From NCBI GenBank assembly GCA_010672825.2, contig JAAHFU020000004.1:806001-870000 (forward strand): a DNA stretch of 64,000 bases, written 5' to 3'. Of this stretch, positions 10,663 through 48,164 are shown piece by piece (position 1 is the stretch's first letter; each line of letters opens with the position of its first letter). Origin of the DNA: Leptolyngbya sp. SIO1E4. Its GTDB lineage: Bacteria; Cyanobacteriota; Cyanobacteriia; Phormidesmidales; Phormidesmidaceae. The position numbers and the translations under genes are program-made. A model generated the notes under the pieces. It was not told the DNA's origin. It did no database searches and saw only the letters and a list, made by a program, of their open reading frames with translations.

Positions 10663-11833
10663 GCTTTGTCCAATGTCAGGATTTTCAGAAAATATTCAAA
10701 CTGAGAAGATACATTAAGTTCACCAAGAAATCATCAGCAAAAAAGTAACTTATCACGTTTGATTTAAGCCAAAAAATCCGGCATTAAATCCTACAATGAG
10801 ATAAGTCAGAAATATTTACTAAATGAAATCTTAGAGGAATTAATGAATCAAGAGAATGTTCAAGAAACCTTCCGGATCATATCAAACATCTGTGTTAGTT
10901 AGAGTCAACACAGAAGTAGACATTAAAGTCTTTTTTTGCCATGATTTCTACAAAGAAGTAGCTTGTGGAATATCCAAAGAGATAGTGAGATTTTCAGGTT
11001 GCGAATTAATCAGAGATTCAGTTCATGTTGAACTCACAGCTCTCTAACTTGATTCAGCTCGTTTCATCCACACAAGATACTTTCACTTAAATGTCCTCTA
11101 TGAGGTAAATAGCACCTGATCTTGAAGGGCAAAATCATTCGACTGATTTCTTGCTCTTTGGAACTTATTATGATGCACTTTCTTTACAATGCCTTCAGCG
11201 ATAAAACTTATTATTCAAGGTTCGTTTTCACTAGATCTTCACTTTCCTGATAGATGTTTGAGTGATTTTACTGAGTCTTGTATGCATCCTCCCAAAAATA
11301 TGAAGAATGCAACGTGATGTAGAGCATTTTCTAATCTTGATAATCTTTCAAACATGTTCAGACAATCAGGAAATACTGTAAGGATAAGGGGGAATGTGGC
11401 TCGTTGCAGCTAACGCTGACTATGCACCTCTCTTGATTCAAGACGGCATGGAATTCCAGGGCATTGTCAACTTAACTTTCGTGGTAACCTTTGTCAGCAT
11501 TCGTCAGGGCTAGTCCATGAGCGTCAGCTACAAGTACCACCGATTTCCCATTGCGATCATTCGTTCTGTTTTTGAAATTAGGCACAAGAATTCCTGCCAA
11601 TCCCATTCGCCAACAACGCTAGGCGATCGAGGATAGTCGTGTGAATTGCGGCCAGTCGCTTAAGCGCTGGTGCATCGTCGCTCGGTATTCAGTTGCAGAT
11701 TTCGATGTTGATGAGGACGAAAGTAGCCGCGTATCGGTTCAAAGGCGGCGAGAAATCGCTGAGCTCTTCTAGGGGATTTAAATCGTCCCATCCGTTGCTC
11801 GCGCACTTGGGTCGGGTGATTAGAAAAACACTA
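10663..11833. other. Long spacer with a possible transposase relic
   Basis: No convincing gene lies in these 1.17 kb. The right part of 10663-10860 would hold the promoter of the minus-strand polysaccharide operon. Around 11518-11560 the plus strand reads MSVSYKYHRFPIAIIRSV, which resembles the start of IS6-family transposases but soon loses frame. The opposite strand there also gives a short open stretch. I take 11.4-11.7 kb as a degraded insertion-sequence scar at low confidence. A short plus-strand frame at 10856-11047 has no family resemblance or ribosome-binding site and was not called. Confidence 0.3.
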
Positions 11834-34581: not shown

Positions 34582-34817
34582 TGTCTATTCCAACGAAGAA
34601 ATAGATGTTTTAGGCTTTTCTGAAAAGTTTTGGGCACTATTTTCCAGTTTTAGACGGGCAGCCTTTTCCACCTAATCCTCCTTTTCATGATGTGATCAAA
34701 ACCCATCGAATGCCTTACATTAAAAGTATTTCAATGGTTTTCAGAGCCAATCATGTTATGTGGAATGATTCTCTCTAGTAAGTTGTTATGCCTTATGTTC
34801 CTGGGCAGCTACTCCAA

Positions 34818-35699
34818 TCAAAGGCGCTGTCGATATTCATTGGGTGTGATCCCTATCATTTTGCGAAACTGATGAGTGAGGTGGCTCTGACAGCTGAAGC
34901 CACACTGAACCGCGATCTCTGCGATCGAGTAGTGGTGCCGCGTCAATAACTTTTTTGCTCGCTCAAGTCTTTGTTGCGTAACATATTGCCAAGGAGAGAT
35001 TCCTGTGGAAAGCTTAAAAAGGCTCGAAAAGTAGGATGGGTTGAGACTTACCACCTGCGCCAAATCGGCTAGCCGGATCTCTTGGCCCAGATTCGCGTCG
35101 ATATAGTCTAGTACTTGATTTAGCTTCAGCTTACTGAGCCCTTGTTTAGTCTTGAGAGACTTCAGGATACGTGAAGAATAGTTCCGTAGTAGATGAACTG
35201 CTAAGAGATTCGTTAACGATTCCAGACACAGCCTACTTCCCCAATTCCCTACTTGAGTTTCACGCTGGAAGCACCACACGATTTCTTCAAGCTGTTGGTC
35301 GCGGCGCTTAAACGTGCTGATTAGCTCAACCCGTGTAGGTTGAGCAGGATTTACCGCTAAGGCGAGGCTTTCTAAAAAAGTCGGCTGAATGATAAAAGCT
35401 AAGACCTCATCTGTTGACTCGCAGGCGCTAAAGAAAGGGGCATCGGCAGGAATTAACAAAAAGTCGCCTCGTCTAAGTGAACTGTCATACTCCCGACCAT
35501 CTAATCGCATCACTTGACGCGAGACGTTGCCTAGTCCAAACACCAGCACATGGTGAGGCAACCCTTCAGATGTTTCGCATTCGCCAGCAGGGTGAACCTG
35601 ATGCTCGGCGACAATGCTGCCTTGGTGAAGGCTTTGACTAGAGCGCACCCAACCGGGCTGGACCACTTCTGCCATATGAATGGATGATTCAGAAGACAT
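34818..35699 (-). CDS. AraC-family transcriptional regulator
   Basis: A 293-residue regulator. The N-terminal domain (about 30-190) is cupin-like, with HQVHPAGECETSEGLPHHVL. The C-terminal DNA-binding part has IRLADLAQVVSLNPSYFSSL and IAEIAVQCGFSCQSHLTHQF, ending IGITPNEYRQRL. It is convergent with the RND pump gene and divergent from the S41-like gene at 35892. It could act on either or on itself. The divergent spacer holds a CAGATTT/AAATCTG hairpin at 35767-35785. Confidence 0.88.
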   Translation of the reverse strand: MSSESSIHMAEVVQPGWVRSSQSLHQGSIVAEHQVHPAGECETSEGLPHHVLVFGLGNVSRQVMRLDGREYDSSLRRGDFLLIPADAPFFSACESTDEVLAFIIQPTFLESLALAVNPAQPTRVELISTFKRRDQQLEEIVWCFQRETQVGNWGSRLCLESLTNLLAVHLLRNYSSRILKSLKTKQGLSKLKLNQVLDYIDANLGQEIRLADLAQVVSLNPSYFSSLFKLSTGISPWQYVTQQRLERAKKLLTRHHYSIAEIAVQCGFSCQSHLTHQFRKMIGITPNEYRQRL

Positions 35700-35891
35700 C
35701 CGCTAAGCCTCATGAATCATACTGCTTCAAGCTGACATGTTTCTTGCAAAGACCTATGCATCGTGACAGATTTCAAAAAAATCTGCAAGACAGCCACATA
35801 CAAGTTAGCGGATGATAGACACCTCGACGCGAGCGTGTAAAGCCAACTATGAGTAACAAAAAATCAAAATCATGCAAGCTTAAGTAAAGTC

Positions 35892-37049
35892 ATGAAAAAG
35901 ACAAAATTTATTCAGCAGTTTTTGCTTCTGGTTACGCTTTTGATCCTGACAGGATGTCGCTCCTTTGGCCTTTCACGGAGTCAAGAACAGCAGGTATCAG
36001 ACAACAGTGCAAAGCAAGCAGAAAATACAGATGTTTCACTTAGTTGGTTTGCTGACTCTGAACTAGAGCCTATAGATATCATTTCTGCCCCAGAGGCAAA
36101 GGCGTTTGTCAATAATATCTACCAAACGCTTGACGATGAAATTTTTGATCCAGAATTTAAGCAAGAGGAACGTAATCGGCAGCGACAAGAACTCTTAGCT
36201 GAAATTGACGGTCAACCACGCTGGACGAGAGCAGAACTGACTGAGCATGTCAGTAATCAGTTTGACTCGCTTTCAGTGTCTCATCTGAGAATTTTAGACC
36301 CGGTAGAAGGTGAAAAATTATTCCGCATGATTGAGCAAGAACCATTGCCAGATACTGTCCCGGAGTCAGCGATCTCGGCAGAAATGAGAGGCAGGGTTGG
36401 CATTTTAACAGTTCGTAGCTTCTTGATTCCTCAAGTTACCAAGTCCGCACTAGATCAAGCAAAATCCCAACTCTCTCAAGCTGAGGTGATTTTAATCGAC
36501 GTGCGTGGGAATGGTGGTGGCGCAGGCTCAAGCATCAGCTATCTTGTAGAAGACATTGTAGGTGCTGACAAAGTGCTGTGGCGGGATAGAACTCGGGAAG
36601 GGCTACAGATGCAAGAGCCATATGTTTTCCAGGGATATTTTGATGACTCAATAAATGCTCAATCTGAAGCTGAGATTAAGCTGTCTGAAGAGCAACCGTA
36701 TGTTGAGTGGCGCACTCGGTCGGAAGCTAAAAAAGATCCCAGACCTCATTTCATTTTGATTGACGATCAGTGTGGTTCATCTTGCGACTTGTTCGCTGGA
36801 ATCATCAAGGATTATGGAGCTGCCACAATCCTTGGTGTTCGCACAATGGGAGCGTTGTTTGGGGGCGATGCTTTTAGATTAGACTGGCAGGGATTTGCGC
36901 TGATTGTCCCAACTCTTCAGGTAACTTCGCCAAAGGGTAATACGATTGAAGGGGTGGGCGTGCAACCAGATGTTGAAATTCCTGAATGTCAAAACAGCGG
37001 CAGCCAGTGCCTTGAAAAAGCAGTTGAAATTGCAGGCGCAGCGACATAA
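35892..37049 (+). CDS. S41-family (tail-specific/C-terminal-processing) peptidase-like lipoprotein, cassette-like
   Basis: A 385-residue protein. The N-terminus MKKTKFIQQFLLLVTLLILT ends in the lipobox LTGC (Cys22), so it is a lipoprotein. The S41 fold is seen in VILIDVRGNGGGAGSSISYL and in CGSSCDLFAGIIKDYG, where the serine of the usual nucleophile elbow lies. VGVQPDVEIPECQ is the usual closing strand. No PDZ domain is evident. The stop codon lies within the 5' arm of an integron attC-like site (37047-37128). That is exactly how a gene cassette is built, so the gene was probably captured as a cassette. Confidence 0.8.
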   Translation: MKKTKFIQQFLLLVTLLILTGCRSFGLSRSQEQQVSDNSAKQAENTDVSLSWFADSELEPIDIISAPEAKAFVNNIYQTLDDEIFDPEFKQEERNRQRQELLAEIDGQPRWTRAELTEHVSNQFDSLSVSHLRILDPVEGEKLFRMIEQEPLPDTVPESAISAEMRGRVGILTVRSFLIPQVTKSALDQAKSQLSQAEVILIDVRGNGGGAGSSISYLVEDIVGADKVLWRDRTREGLQMQEPYVFQGYFDDSINAQSEAEIKLSEEQPYVEWRTRSEAKKDPRPHFILIDDQCGSSCDLFAGIIKDYGAATILGVRTMGALFGGDAFRLDWQGFALIVPTLQVTSPKGNTIEGVGVQPDVEIPECQNSGSQCLEKAVEIAGAAT

Positions 37050-37128
37050 CAATCTAGCTGGAGCGGACTGAACAGAATTGTTTTAGCATCTAAAGGTTGC
37101 TTGCCGCCGCTCAGCTGAAACGTTAGAC
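37047..37128 (+). other. Integron attC-like recombination site
   Basis: Folding the strand by eye gives the attC plan. R boxes: TAAC (37047-37050) pairs with GTTA, and the right end GTTAGAC fits the consensus GTTRRRY. Five unpaired bases lie on each side (37051-37055 and 37117-37121), as in the unpaired central spacer. L boxes: AGCTG (37056-37060) pairs with CAGCT, and AGCGG (37062-37066) pairs with CCGCT, leaving G37061 unpaired, as the extrahelical base should be. A 40-base terminal loop closes the hairpin. The left R box is imperfect (ACATAAC against RYYYAAC). It directly follows the S41-like gene. Confidence 0.72.
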
Positions 37129-40859: not shown

Positions 40860-41435
40860 TCAAATACCTGATTCAGGAAGGTCTGTGCCCTCTTCTTCGA
40901 TCAACCGTACCGCGTTTTCCAATTCTGATTCCAACCTTTCAGCACTAGGTAAAACTTCTGGTAGCCTATGCTCTGCAATCGCGATCGGGTTACGGAGATT
41001 ATTTAAGGCATATTCCGCGATCGCCTTCTTCTTTGTTTGACACAGAATAATCCCAATCGTATGCTGGTCGTATTCCTTCCGATTTTGACCATCTACAGCT
41101 GAGATATAAAAATTCATTCTGCCGGATTGCTCTGGTCTAAAATCACTCATCTCTAATTCAATAACCACAAAGCAGCGTAATTCTAAGTGATAAAACAACA
41201 GATCAACATAGAAATCCTCATCTCCTACTGTCAAATGATAATTATGGCCGACAAAAGAGAATCCCACCCCAAGCTCTAGCAAGAAGTCGCGCATATGCCT
41301 CACTAACGCACGCTTCAAATCCTGCTATTTGACACCCTTTTCAAGCGTTAAAAAGTCCAAGTTATAGGGATCTTTGACAATTTGTTTGGCCAGGTCTGAC
41401 TGAGGTTGTGGTAAGGTTCGCTCAAAGTTCGGGCG
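40860..41435 (-). pseudogene. YhcG-type PDDEXK nuclease (DUF1016) gene, truncated by IS1 and carrying a nonsense codon
   Basis: The minus strand encodes the C-terminal DUF1016/PDDEXK half of YhcG: NFERTLPQPQSDLAKQIVKD, YNLDFLTLEKG, then after an in-frame TAG at 41325-41327 QDLKRALVRHMRDFLLELGV and DFYVDLLFYHLELRCFVVIE. The nuclease residues D, E and the following acidic run of the PDDEXK core are present. The N-terminal half is absent, because the IS1-family element begins at 41436. The family is tied to restriction and phage-defence contexts. Here it should be dead. Confidence 0.85.
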
Positions 41436-42204
41436 TTGCATAATTGAGGGATGGAAAAATCTCCGGAGATGCCGATGCAATGTCCTGAGTGCGGTTCTGA
41501 GCATATTCGCAAAAATGGGCATCGACGTGGCCAACAAAATCACCTGTGCGTGGATTGTCGACGCCAGTTTGTCGCGAACCCCCAAACCGAGTTCGGCTAC
41601 AGCGATGAGGTGCGCCGTCAATGTTTGAAGCTGTATACAAATGGGCTGGGCTTTCGGGCAATTGAACGGGTGAGTGGTGTGCATCACACCACAGTCATCC
41701 ATTGGGTCAAACAGAGTGGGGAGTTGCTGCCCGATGCCTACGACCCAGAAGGGGTCCCTGAAGTGGTAGAACTGGATGAACTCCAGACCTTTGTCGGGGC
41801 AAAAAAACAAACTCTGGATTTGGACCGTCGTCGACCACTTCCGGCCCGGTATCCTCGGGTGGGTCGTCGGTGACCGCAGTGGGCAAACCTTTGAACCGTT
41901 ATGGGCGATGGTCAGGGTATGGCGGTGCTTTTTCTCCGTGACTGATGGCTGGAAGGTCTACCCCAGTTACATCCCAGAAGGTGACCAAATCGTGAGTAAG
42001 ACCTATATGACCCGGGTGGAGGGTGAAAATACGCGATTGCGGCATTACCTCGCTCGTCTCCACCGTAAGACGTTGTGTTACTCGAAATCACTAGAGATGC
42101 TGAAGCATTCACTGCGGCTGGTGATTCACTCCCTCAAGTTTGGTGACCTCCCGATGCCCTCTCGAAAATCCAATCGCTGAATGATTCATCCCTCATTTCA
42201 GCAA
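41436..42204 (+). mobile_element. IS1-family insertion sequence
   Basis: Length 769 bp, the normal IS1 size. Left end TTGCATAATTGAGGGATG (41436-41453) and the complement of the right end (42187-42204, TTGCTGAAATGAGGGATG) are imperfect inverted repeats. The transposase lies between them in two frames. The left flank is broken yhcG and the right flank is an unrelated truncated gene. No 8-9 bp target duplication is seen, so the junction probably results from recombination or deletion, not simple insertion. Confidence 0.85.
41451..42180 (+). CDS. IS1-family transposase in two overlapping frames
   Basis: The first frame (41451-41873) has the N-terminal zinc finger CPECGSEHIRKNG...CVDCRRQF, the HTH GLGFRAIERVSGVHHTTVIHW and ELDELQTFVGAKK. 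The second frame (41776-42180) continues KNKLWIWTVVDHFRPGILGW with the DDE residues and ends LRLVIHSLKFGDLPMPSRKS. The join is a run of seven A at 41801-41807. IS1 elements normally join two frames there by slippage. Here the needed change is +1 (or -2), not the classical -1, so this may be transcriptional slippage or a damaged copy. Confidence 0.82.
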
Positions 42205-44189: not shown

Positions 44190-44276
44190 GCCTAACGGTG
44201 AAGTTCAACAGCGGCAGGCAACTTTTAGCTCCCGACCGACTAACTAACGCCCGTCCGTTGCAGCGAGGTGTTTATG
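44190..44276 (-). other. Possible second attC-like site (minus strand)
   Basis: On the minus strand, just after the DUF2283 stop, the sequence ends in GTTAGGC (44196-44190), a perfect GTTRRRY core. Its L-like arm (CCGCTGTTG) pairs with CAACGGACGG (near 44260-44251), leaving one A unpaired, with nine-base spacers on both sides. The left R box is only CATAAAC, so pairing there is limited to three bases. Position after a gene stop fits a cassette. Weaker than the site at 37047-37128. Confidence 0.35.
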
Positions 44277-44284
44277 TTGCGTGT

Positions 44285-44512
44285 CTACTGGACAGAACTT
44301 AACTGCCCTAGCTCAACGCTGACTGTGTCAAAACGATTATCGCCAGGATGATAAGAAAGAATTTCTAAGCCAATCGGTTCACCCGTTGTAGAGTCTTTAA
44401 TCAGGATAATCCCGTCTCCTAACTCAGTGCTGATTTGCTCTTTTCGAGGGGGTTGCCAGAATACCGTCAGCAACTCCGTTTCTGGTTCATAAAAGACCTT
44501 TACCTGCGCCAT
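44285..44512 (-). CDS. DUF2283 protein (antitoxin-like)
   Basis: A 75-residue protein, MAQVKVFYEPETELLTVFWQ then GIILIKDSTTGEPIGLEIL, the DUF2283 pattern. Its start overlaps the end of the DUF4258-like gene by 13 bases. DUF2283 and DUF4258 proteins are often encoded together and are regarded as a toxin-antitoxin-type pair, with DUF2283 the probable antitoxin. The stop is followed by an attC-like sequence. It is the last gene of the trypco2/trypsin-STAND run. Confidence 0.75.
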   Translation of the reverse strand: MAQVKVFYEPETELLTVFWQPPRKEQISTELGDGIILIKDSTTGEPIGLEILSYHPGDNRFDTVSVELGQLSSVQ

Positions 44513-44802
44513 ATCGACTCTCCTTCTTTAATTGCATCGGTTTGATAGGCCGTAATTAAGAATCCATCTCCATTTAAGCGCCTTGCCACAGCGACGACCC
44601 AGCGCTTCTCCTTACGAGCGAGATAAAACAAAAGTACTCCTTCATCACGGCTGCTTTGGCGAATTTCATCGGGGTCTGCAAGGGCTTGTTGAACGAGGAC
44701 TTCTAAGTCGGCAATGTCGGGATGTTTGGTAATCAGCCGTTGCCAGTAGCTTTCAGAGGTTCTGACGGTAAATTCAAGCGGAGTGAGGATTTCAAATTTC
44801 AT
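44500..44802 (-). CDS. DUF4258-like protein (putative toxin)
   Basis: A 100-residue protein. ITKHPDIADLEVLVQQALAD, then VLLFYLARKEKRWVVAVARR and GDGFLITAYQTDAIKEGESI fit the DUF4258 / RelE-like group: helices, then a beta-sheet ending in a TAY motif. It begins one base after the STAND gene stop and overlaps DUF2283, so the three are cotranscribed. A nuclease-type toxin role is inferred from the family, not shown. Confidence 0.65.
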   Translation of the reverse strand: MKFEILTPLEFTVRTSESYWQRLITKHPDIADLEVLVQQALADPDEIRQSSRDEGVLLFYLARKEKRWVVAVARRLNGDGFLITAYQTDAIKEGESIWRR

Positions 44803-47800
44803 TCATCCTCCACCAGTTTCTAATTTTTCCATTAGCCCTAGGCATTCATCTTTAAGCGAAATGTCTAACTCTGTCGCTAGGGCTAGCGCCTGCTGAGCAT
44901 ACTGTCGCGCCACATCAATCTCGCCTAGGACTTGGTAGAGTTCGCCTAGGTTTTTGAGGGCTTCGGCTTCATCGTGACGACTTTTGACTTCCTGAAAAAT
45001 GTTTAGAGCTGCTTCCAAATTCTCTAATGCTTCAGCTATTGATTCTTGTCTGAGTAAAGTAACACCCAGTTCTCTTAATCCAGCGCCTTCGCCTCGCCTA
45101 TCTCCTATTTCACGAGCAACAGCTAGATGCTGGTTAGCATAGTCAAAAGCCTGATCGTATTCTCTTAAGTTTGTATAGGCAATGCCCAAGTTGCCTAGAT
45201 TGAGTCCCTCACCGCGACGGTCGCAAATTTCATGATTGATCGTTAGAGATTGCTGGCAATAATCAATTGCTAGTTCATACTGGCCGAGATTAATGTAAGC
45301 ACTCCCTATACTTCCCAATGCACTACTTTCACCTTTACGATTACCAATCTCCCGGGCAATTATTAGCCACTGTTGAAAGTTTTTAATCGCTTGATCAAAG
45401 TTTCCCTGACTTTCATATGCAATGCCTAGATTACCTAAAGCTAGGCTTTCGCTATAGCGATCTCCAGTTTCGCGTGCAATAACTAGCGGTTGTTGGTAAT
45501 AGTTGATTGCTTGTTCATATTGTCCCAAATTCTTATATGCAATCCCTAGATTGCCCAGTGCGTAGCTCTCACCGCGGCGATCTCCGATCTCGCGAGCTAT
45601 CTCTAAATCTTGTAGGTAGTAGTTGATTGCTTGTTCGTATTGCCCTTTAAAGAGATACACGGTTCCTAGATTGCCTAGAATCTTCGATTCGCTTGCTTTA
45701 TCTGCAATGTTTTTCGCTAACTGCAATCCCCCTTGTAAATACCGTGTAGCATTTGCGAAATCACCAAGGCGAGAGTATGCAAGGCCGAAGCCACGATGCC
45801 AGAGAATGTCTCGTTCGGTTGATGTTTGCCCAAGAACTCGCTCATAGAGTCTAATTTCATCCTGGTAGTAGCCCCAAGTTTCTAACTGCCAGTGGAGTGC
45901 CTCTTTGGTTGGCGAGTCAATTTGAGTGTCTAGAACAGCGCAAGCTTCTTCCCAATCCTCAATCTCGCAGTAGTGGTCAAAAGCTTCCAGGTAACCGCGC
46001 ACGGATTCTATGTTAAGGGCGTCGGGGGCAGGCACGTAGCTGTTCAGCCAAAGGTGGGCGGCCTGGCGTTCAGCGGCTTCCCAGACAGAACGATCGCGCT
46101 TCAAATTGGCATAAGCAACTTCTCGGATCAAATTATGCTGCCGCAACCAAAACTGCCCTGCTAGGAGATCATGATCCTCTACCAAGTTGCGGTTTTTCAG
46201 CATCATGAGTGTGCTATCCGCATCATTTGGAGTAAGCTCTGGCAACATGACTCGATAAAACGTTTCGGGGACAGGTCTACGGAAGACCGCACAATGCTGA
46301 AGCATCTGCCGGGGTAGATCAGGTAGTGACTGAATCGTCTGATTTACCCAGCTACGGGCACGTTGTTCTTGGCTTTGGCGAAGTTTGGGCGGAAGTTGGT
46401 TTTGCCGTTGGCTGTAGTATTCCTGCCAGTATTTACTCACATCACCGTTAAATGGTCGCTTGCCAATATCCCCTGCGATCATTTTCAGGATCAGTGGATG
46501 CCCTTCAAAGTAGTCAGCGATGGAGTAAAGGTGCTGAGTATCTTGATCGGTTTGGGGAGTCACACCGTAATTATTGAACAGAGCTAGCCAGAGATCGCGC
46601 TCTAAGCCCGCCAGTGAAAAGTCTTGCCAGAGATTGTCGTAACGTAAGCAGCGATTGACCAGATCAGTGGGCAATGCCTGGGATGTCAAAACGATGCGGG
46701 CGTTGGAAGACTGAGTCAAAAACTGATAGAAAAAGTCTAGCCAGGTAAGGTCGCTGAAGTGGGACTCTCCGTCGTCGTTTTGGCTCAGCAAATATTCCAC
46801 CGAATCCAGTTGCAACCAGCAGGGATGTTGCTCCAGAGTTTGCAACAGGTGAGGCAGGAGTTGTTCATCTGGCAATTGCTGAGCCGTATCATCTCCCAGA
46901 GTTTGCAAAATCGCTAGAGCGCCTCGACTGAAACTCTTAGAATGGTCTCCTTGGTCGAACGCCACCACATAGTAGGTTTCGGGCATAGCAAATTCTGCAG
47001 CCAGTCGTTCTGCCAGAGTGGTTTTGCCAATACCTGTCATGCCGTGAATGAGCAGCAGGCAACTGCCATTTTGCAGGGCTTGGGTTAGCTCGAAGAGCGC
47101 ATCCTCTCTTCCCGTCCAGGTTTCAGGACGATAGGTAGAAAAGTGAAAGGAAGCAGCGGAAAAAGGCGATCGCGGTAAAGATTCTCGGAGATGGGCGACC
47201 TCCATCTCAGGCTTGATACCATGCCTCTCTAGTAACTGCTGCCATTGCTTATCGTCGTAGACTGTCCACAGGGGAGACGCCTCCAGGGATGCAGGACGTT
47301 TAGGATTCTGATGCTGGCTCTGGACAGCAATGACCAACCCATCACAGACAATCGCCGCCCCAGATGCTCCTTCCCATTCCGACTGAACGGTGGTTACTGC
47401 AGTTGGCAGGCGTTGGGGTTCCAAAACTAGCAGTCCATCAGGAGAGGTATCTGCCAGATAAATCACGCCCTCAATTTGCCGTCCGCCTGCGGCAGTCTTT
47501 CCCGCATCTCGCTGCGTGCGCCCCCATCTCGGATAGGCATACATCTGAAAGTCAAGCTTCTCGCTAGTGTTTGCTTTCGGCAGTTTGCCCAGCACAGTTG
47601 CCTCTACCCTTTCAACTTCACTGGGTAGTTCAATTAGGGCAATGTCTAAATTCTTAGCTTTCCAAATAGTGTGGGCAGCCTTTTCGCCAAAGCTCTGCTT
47701 TGCCCTCACAGTGCAGGAAGAACCCACATCACCCAGCAAATGAGCCGCTGTGAGCACCAGTCTGCCACCGATGCAATAACCAGAACCATATCTGGGAGCA

Positions 47801-47850
47801 ATGACCTCAACTGCTCGACTAGGTTCAAACTGACGGATAGACATGGACAT
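44803..47850 (-). CDS. Trypsin-like protease - STAND NTPase - TPR conflict protein
   Basis: A 1015-residue protein. An N-terminal trypsin-like domain (about 15-195) has a full catalytic triad: His37 in LVLTAAHLL, Asp69 in NLDIALIEL and Ser163 in EWEGASGAAIV. A STAND/AAA-type NTPase follows, with Walker A LLLIHGMTGIGKTTLAERL (270-278) and Walker B CWLQLDSVEYLL (344-355), then a winged-helix-like part. From about 660 there are eight or more 40-residue TPRs (ALGNLGIAYKNLGQYEQAIN type). Such proteins are predicted immune NTPases: TPRs sense, the NTPase assembles, and the protease cleaves a target. The trypco2 gene just upstream overlaps its start by one base, which supports this reading. Confidence 0.85.
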   Translation of the reverse strand: MSMSIRQFEPSRAVEVIAPRYGSGYCIGGRLVLTAAHLLGDVGSSCTVRAKQSFGEKAAHTIWKAKNLDIALIELPSEVERVEATVLGKLPKANTSEKLDFQMYAYPRWGRTQRDAGKTAAGGRQIEGVIYLADTSPDGLLVLEPQRLPTAVTTVQSEWEGASGAAIVCDGLVIAVQSQHQNPKRPASLEASPLWTVYDDKQWQQLLERHGIKPEMEVAHLRESLPRSPFSAASFHFSTYRPETWTGREDALFELTQALQNGSCLLLIHGMTGIGKTTLAERLAAEFAMPETYYVVAFDQGDHSKSFSRGALAILQTLGDDTAQQLPDEQLLPHLLQTLEQHPCWLQLDSVEYLLSQNDDGESHFSDLTWLDFFYQFLTQSSNARIVLTSQALPTDLVNRCLRYDNLWQDFSLAGLERDLWLALFNNYGVTPQTDQDTQHLYSIADYFEGHPLILKMIAGDIGKRPFNGDVSKYWQEYYSQRQNQLPPKLRQSQEQRARSWVNQTIQSLPDLPRQMLQHCAVFRRPVPETFYRVMLPELTPNDADSTLMMLKNRNLVEDHDLLAGQFWLRQHNLIREVAYANLKRDRSVWEAAERQAAHLWLNSYVPAPDALNIESVRGYLEAFDHYCEIEDWEEACAVLDTQIDSPTKEALHWQLETWGYYQDEIRLYERVLGQTSTERDILWHRGFGLAYSRLGDFANATRYLQGGLQLAKNIADKASESKILGNLGTVYLFKGQYEQAINYYLQDLEIAREIGDRRGESYALGNLGIAYKNLGQYEQAINYYQQPLVIARETGDRYSESLALGNLGIAYESQGNFDQAIKNFQQWLIIAREIGNRKGESSALGSIGSAYINLGQYELAIDYCQQSLTINHEICDRRGEGLNLGNLGIAYTNLREYDQAFDYANQHLAVAREIGDRRGEGAGLRELGVTLLRQESIAEALENLEAALNIFQEVKSRHDEAEALKNLGELYQVLGEIDVARQYAQQALALATELDISLKDECLGLMEKLETGGG

Positions 47851-48164
47851 TATTCCGGGACTTCATCACTCCCGGTGAAAATAGGCTTGCCGTCCGCACG
47901 AAGGGGTTTGAGCGGAATCACTACTTTATGTATATTCCTGTCTTTAACTGCTCCACCTGCCCCGAATTCAACTACCCAAAATTGGATTCCGCCCTTAGCC
48001 TCGGCACTGCGCTCCACTTCGATCTGAAACTCCATCATGATTTCGCCCACCTCAAACCGCAGCCGCTCCCCCTGCGATGCAATGACTGACTCAATCAACT
48101 CTGCTCGCAGTGCCGCGATCGTTTCCTGTAACCCGATCCGTTTTGGTTTTACCATACCCCTCAC
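47850..48164 (-). CDS. Trypco2-family (trypsin-co-occurring domain) protein
   Basis: A 104-residue protein. GLQETIAALRAELIESVIAS, GERLRFEVGEIMMEFQIEV and KGGIQFWVVEFGAGG match the trypco2 domain, a small partner family encoded beside trypsin-like conflict proteases. Its TAA overlaps the ATG of the trypsin-STAND gene (TAATG), a sign of coupled translation. It is probably the adaptor or effector-associated partner of that protease. The exact role is unknown. Confidence 0.85.
   Translation of the reverse strand: MRGMVKPKRIGLQETIAALRAELIESVIASQGERLRFEVGEIMMEFQIEVERSAEAKGGIQFWVVEFGAGGAVKDRNIHKVVIPLKPLRADGKPIFTGSDEVPE

Follow-up and report, generated by a model that had tools for sequence, protein, structure and literature searches.

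The attC site that ends an integron gene cassette acts through its bottom strand, which forms a hairpin carrying extrahelical bases; this hairpin is bound by the integron integrase (IntI), and recombination takes place at the right R box, which is of the GTTRRRY type. Cyanobacteria are counted among the integron-bearing phyla (PMC8618304), and a covariance model specific to the attCs of this phylum has already been built (PMC8352920). Clusters of attCs lacking an integrase (CALINs) are reported from two sites upwards and single-site ones can be true (PMC9024848); two of the three routes by which they arise are off-target insertion and the loss of intI (PMC8618304), and integrases acting in trans can move their cassettes (PMC9668308). 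No title among the literature matches listed is devoted to cyanobacterial integrons.

The window, the 64,000-nt stretch of DNA analysed here (G000:C4:806001-870000), belongs to an 8.2-Mb genome of 12 contigs with an estimated completeness of 99.99%. It holds a genuine attC of the cyanobacterial type, which very probably closes a cassette of two divergent genes, one for an AraC-type regulator and one for an S41-type lipoprotein. The features of the window are given below; R1 and R2 denote two covariance models built for this work, and G054 and G013 are two further genomes that carry the gene pair.

34785-34791 (+): GTTATGC, candidate left boundary of the cassette, unsupported by alignment to the G054 cassette start
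34818-35699 (-): gene for an araC-type regulator (HTH_18; Pfam PF12833, 4.9e-25), divergent from the S41 gene
35700-35891: intergenic region of the divergent pair, with presumed promoters (local alignment to G054 and G013)
35892-37049 (+): gene for an S41-family lipoprotein (open reading frame; Pfam PF03572, 3.5e-21; lipobox seen by eye)
37044-37128 (+): attC site at the 3' end of the S41 gene, 85 nt (R1 65.4 bits, E 5.3e-15; R2 26.1 bits, E 5e-4, top match)
37044-37050 (+): left R box ACATAAC (sequence, R1 alignment and pairing check)
37061 (+): extrahelical G between the two L boxes, in an arm that is the same as in the attCs of relatives
37122-37128 (+): right R box GTTAGAC (sequence, R1 alignment and pairing check)
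44190-44277 (-): second attC (R1 38.3 bits, E 1.1e-7; R2 18.8 bits, E 0.027, at 44194-44272)

The site shares with the chromosomal integron attCs of Cyanobacteria, for which PMC8352920 built its model, its R boxes, its L boxes, the arm with an extrahelical base and the position at a gene end; it differs in its outer R pairing, which is G-T or absent. The attC plan had been proposed by an earlier, sequence-only reading of this DNA for 37047-37128, and the site holds with a start three bases further left, at 37044. The right end GTTAGAC fits GTTRRRY as that reading noted, and the L boxes AGCTG/CAGCT and AGCGG/CCGCT, the single extrahelical G and the 40-nt end loop are all present in the sequence as described; for the two unpaired spacers, described as five bases each, the register of the relatives' sites gives 4+4 nt followed by a T-G pair. 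The R boxes pair as claimed when the bottom strand is considered (six of seven positions, with four standard and two G-T pairs), but at just four of seven positions on the top strand. The stop codon of the S41 gene (TAA, 37047-37049), which had been placed in the left arm, lies within the left R box; the S41 gene is thus followed directly by an attC in the same orientation, which is the layout of a gene cassette.

Folding energy by itself is weak evidence for an attC. Bottom-strand folding, a check proposed with the sequence-only reading, gives -12.5 kcal/mol, an energy equalled by 6 of 200 shuffled sequences; for the top strand the energy is -11.5 kcal/mol, equalled by 17 of 200. With six extra flanking bases the bottom-strand count is 19 of 200. 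Because folding energy alone could not settle the site, attCs near the integrases of relatives were collected for a model. R1 was built from 11 attCs from loci of integrase-bearing relatives, the window being excluded; these came from structural scans of 18 stretches near the relatives' integrases and of further loci, with L078 left out of the alignment as misplaced and L055 re-cut after having been too short. The scans near the integrases returned sites of one recognisable type; an initial strict pattern scan caught few of those later found by R1. The named loci closest to these integrases are cyanobacterial, e.g. Leptolyngbya and Nodosilinea, in a list of the best 80 of at least 576, and the host is accordingly taken to belong to the cyanobacteria near these genera. 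R2 was built from 18 attCs of integrase loci outside Cyanobacteria, picked for short loops among 48 and drawn from 11 of 66 such loci. When 25 of the 66 non-cyanobacterial loci were searched with R1, it gave 18 matches, scoring 20-29 bits. Run on the window with filters off, R1 scores 65.4 bits at 37044-37128 and 38.3 bits at the second attC, the next best match having 13.9 bits; R2 gives 26.1 and 18.8 bits for the same two sites and 11.9 bits for the next. The absence of any covariance match had been named as part of the grounds for rejecting the site, and both models match it (R1 E 5e-15, R2 E 5e-4); sequence and structure taken together in this way are decisive for the window site being an attC.

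Sites related to that of the window occur elsewhere in the genome, which answers both the proposal to look for them beside other genes and the suggestion that their absence would count against the site. With a limit of E 1, the genome yields 52 R1 matches, a lower bound given that 150 of 2115 candidates were scored. For clustering, 47 sites were kept (44 of the 52 matches, at E <=0.01, and three from a second match list) and a cluster was defined by neighbour gaps of <=4 kb; 34 sites fall into eight clusters, each of a single orientation, and 13 are singletons, with 26 such gaps seen against a random mean of 1.1 and a maximum of 5 in 2000 trials. In a set of 47 that is not identical to this one (47 of the 59 matches in that second list, the 12 weakest omitted), 30 sites are preceded by a same-strand ORF of >=60 aa, compared to 16.5% at random positions. 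The covariation score of the 59 matches is 0.392 against 0.144 when shuffled, a value reached in 0 of 500 shuffles, in an alignment that was fitted to the structure; when 27 sites were aligned with MAFFT, without such fitting, the L stem reappeared in part (eight pairs, six of them changed on both sides), but the energy was weak (-1.25) and the R stem did not form.

An integrase gene, reported as missing from the window, was not found in intact form elsewhere either: a genome-wide search for intI gives no match above the cut-off of TIGR02249, and hence no complete integron with an intact intI. It does contain one short IntI-like remnant (C2:388814-388978, in L027) of 165 bases or some 45-55 residues; this resembles IntI residues 43-99 with 45% identity and matches just two NCBIfam models, both of integron integrases, at E 0.01. 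Two strong attCs, the nearest to the remnant, are approximately 6.3 kb away from it, and a weak match at C2:390561 (E 0.23) is 1.6 kb away. Taking a CALIN as two or more attCs no further than 4 kb apart without an integrase, the eight clusters are CALINs, and the genome shares with those described in PMC9024848 and PMC8618304 its many attCs, the lack of an intact integrase and the single orientation within clusters. The window site differs in being a singleton by the 4-kb rule; of the two alternatives left by the sequence-only reading, that rule favours the lone cassette, and the genome has eight CALINs elsewhere.

The description of such sites as little known in cyanobacteria does not hold, as they are in print (PMC8352920) and frequent: R1 at E 0.001 finds attC-like sites in 59 of 60 genomes of the order and in 83 of 116 of the class, with no site found in the other 33. 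All of these counts are lower bounds, with 74 or 38 candidates scored per genome. TIGR02249 is matched at E 1e-40 or better in 33 of 63 genomes of the order, and above its cut-off in 30 of 63. Among the 60 genomes of the order searched for sites, 30 of the 31 with an IntI match have some site; of the 29 without one (E 1e-40) all have at least one site and 28 have at least two. The median number of sites per genome is 16 with IntI and 7 without (Mann-Whitney p 0.046). That all 29 genomes lacking an IntI match nevertheless have attC-like sites is relevant to the question of how cassettes survive and are passed on where no integrase is resident.

This wide occurrence, in genomes with and without IntI alike, is also what a dispersed repeat of another kind that merely resembles attC would be expected to show. 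Such a repeat is nevertheless very improbable: arrays of these sites stand beside IntI genes in relatives, the sites tend to come after gene ends, they are more numerous in IntI-bearing genomes and none was found in 33 of the 116 genomes of the class; moreover they are recognised by R2, a model of attCs from outside the phylum, and an Rfam search of the window gave no match. The folding energy, only modestly better than that of shuffled sequences, might suggest a palindrome arisen by chance or a transcription terminator, with no relation to integrons; this has next to no probability, as the separately built R1 and R2 both choose 37044-37128 as the best site in 64 kb and no T run follows it.

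The S41 lipoprotein is rare: of 388 genomes sampled from the class, five have it at E 1e-40, and these belong to three families. No relative was confirmed when named genomes were scanned for the S41 protein. In all five carriers (the window genome, G054, G013, G155 and G124) a divergent araC gene stands beside the S41 gene, its product in the other four having 54-65% identity to that of the window. G054 has three attCs, all on the (-) strand (L029 3437-3523, 4924-5008 and 7305-7389), which bracket the araC/S41 pair and the next gene, a glycosyltransferase; the TAA of its S41 gene also lies within the left R box, and the attC has the same start relative to the stop codon. The G054 attC after S41 is a weak match (19.5 bits, E 0.087 and 0.021). 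G155 has two attCs, both (-), at L165 6927-7013 (61.3 bits) and 11633-11720 (66.2 bits); these bracket araC, S41, a second S41 gene and an APH-family gene, so that further genes separate S41 from the closing attC. G013 and G124 carry the pair too, but in the 19.9 and 17.7 kb searched R1 matches nothing up to E 5. The unit therefore has an attC downstream in three of five carriers, the window included, and the pair lies between attCs of the same orientation in two of the other four. The carriers' integrases range from intact (G013) through truncated (G155) to a fragment (G054), with none in G124 (E 1e-15). The unit is read as a two-gene cassette, which in G155 is joined to a longer one, and it is probably the divergent pair rather than S41 alone that was mobile; the cassette proposed by the sequence-only reading is thus kept as to the S41 gene and its attC, and a unit of two genes is judged likelier than one of a single gene. 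In G155, an APH-family kinase is encoded among the neighbours at L165 7028-13210, as is a gene of GmrSD/DUF262 type, the latter with matches to PADLOC defence models.

Alternatively, an ordinary araC/S41 pair, either resident or horizontally acquired, may have had an attC joined to its 3' end in place, through the birth of a cassette or through a deletion that left a foreign attC behind. G013 and G124 speak for this: with no attC near, they show that the pair also exists outside attC arrays, and they realise in part the refuting case named with the sequence-only reading, that of a homologue without the fold. The conserved intergenic region counts for it as well, though above shuffled sequences for G054 only (local alignment score 62, where 200 shuffles reached 50 at most; for G013 the score of 43 is below that maximum). 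Nor is a left boundary seen in the window: R1 has no match at E 10 between 33211 and 37044, and the GTTATGC at 34785 was not supported, as 358 of 500 shuffles reach the score of its downstream sequence against the G054 cassette start. A search for an empty site found the efflux gene in 0 of 29 antiporter-gene loci of relatives (up to 1.5 kb on each side). Joining in place is considered unlikely all the same, given the pair between two same-orientation attCs in both G054 and G155 and the G054 attC that starts where that of the window does relative to the S41 stop codon. The similarity of the sites themselves is divided. By alignment score to the window attC, the closing attC of G155 is the nearest of 102 sites (88), followed at 87 each by one attC of the G013 integron and one further site of this genome, although other sites rank above that of G155 by a plain count of identities; the G054 site after S41 ranks just 56th, which slightly lowers confidence in the two-gene cassette.

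A two-gene cassette of this kind shares with the integron gene cassette the order of gene and attC and, in G054 and G155, the position between attCs; it differs in its two divergent genes with their own control region, and its left boundary in the window is only a candidate. The araC/S41 cassette would have been spread by integron integrases and either placed here singly, outside an array, or left behind as an array decayed; with the integrase gene lost it would now be stranded, though the arrival of an integrase in the cell could make it mobile again. With its own regulator and intergenic control region the unit might be expressed at any location, and this would explain its survival outside an array. 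The locus thus offers a testable case of a cassette that apparently brings its own regulator and control region, is common to three cyanobacterial families and stands once outside any array. More generally, and as a tentative proposal that we hold to be rather doubtful, the cyanobacteria of this order may keep large stocks of attC cassettes while the integrase is repeatedly lost and regained, these cassettes, among them multi-gene ones with their own regulation like araC/S41, residing mainly outside complete integrons and being moved in trans by passing integrases.

The second attC of the window is an inverted singleton 7 kb from that at 37044-37128, and a rearrangement may have separated the two. 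Between these oppositely oriented sites lies the frame of an IS1 transposase (PF03400; 41776-42180 (+)). A second frame upstream, to which Pfam gives no match, overlaps it (region 41451-42180). A protein with a YhcG_C PDDEXK nuclease domain is encoded at 40860-41318 (-); the start of the domain is missing, and the gene is perhaps truncated. The second attC comes after two small overlapping ORFs without a Pfam match (44285-44512 and 44500-44802). Also ahead of this attC in the region 44190-48164 (-), and tightly spaced with the small ORFs on one strand, are the genes for a TPR protein of 1015 aa, which weakly matches trypsin-like and NB-ARC domains, and for a protein with a Trypco2 domain; the region is possibly a multi-gene cassette with defence-like cargo.
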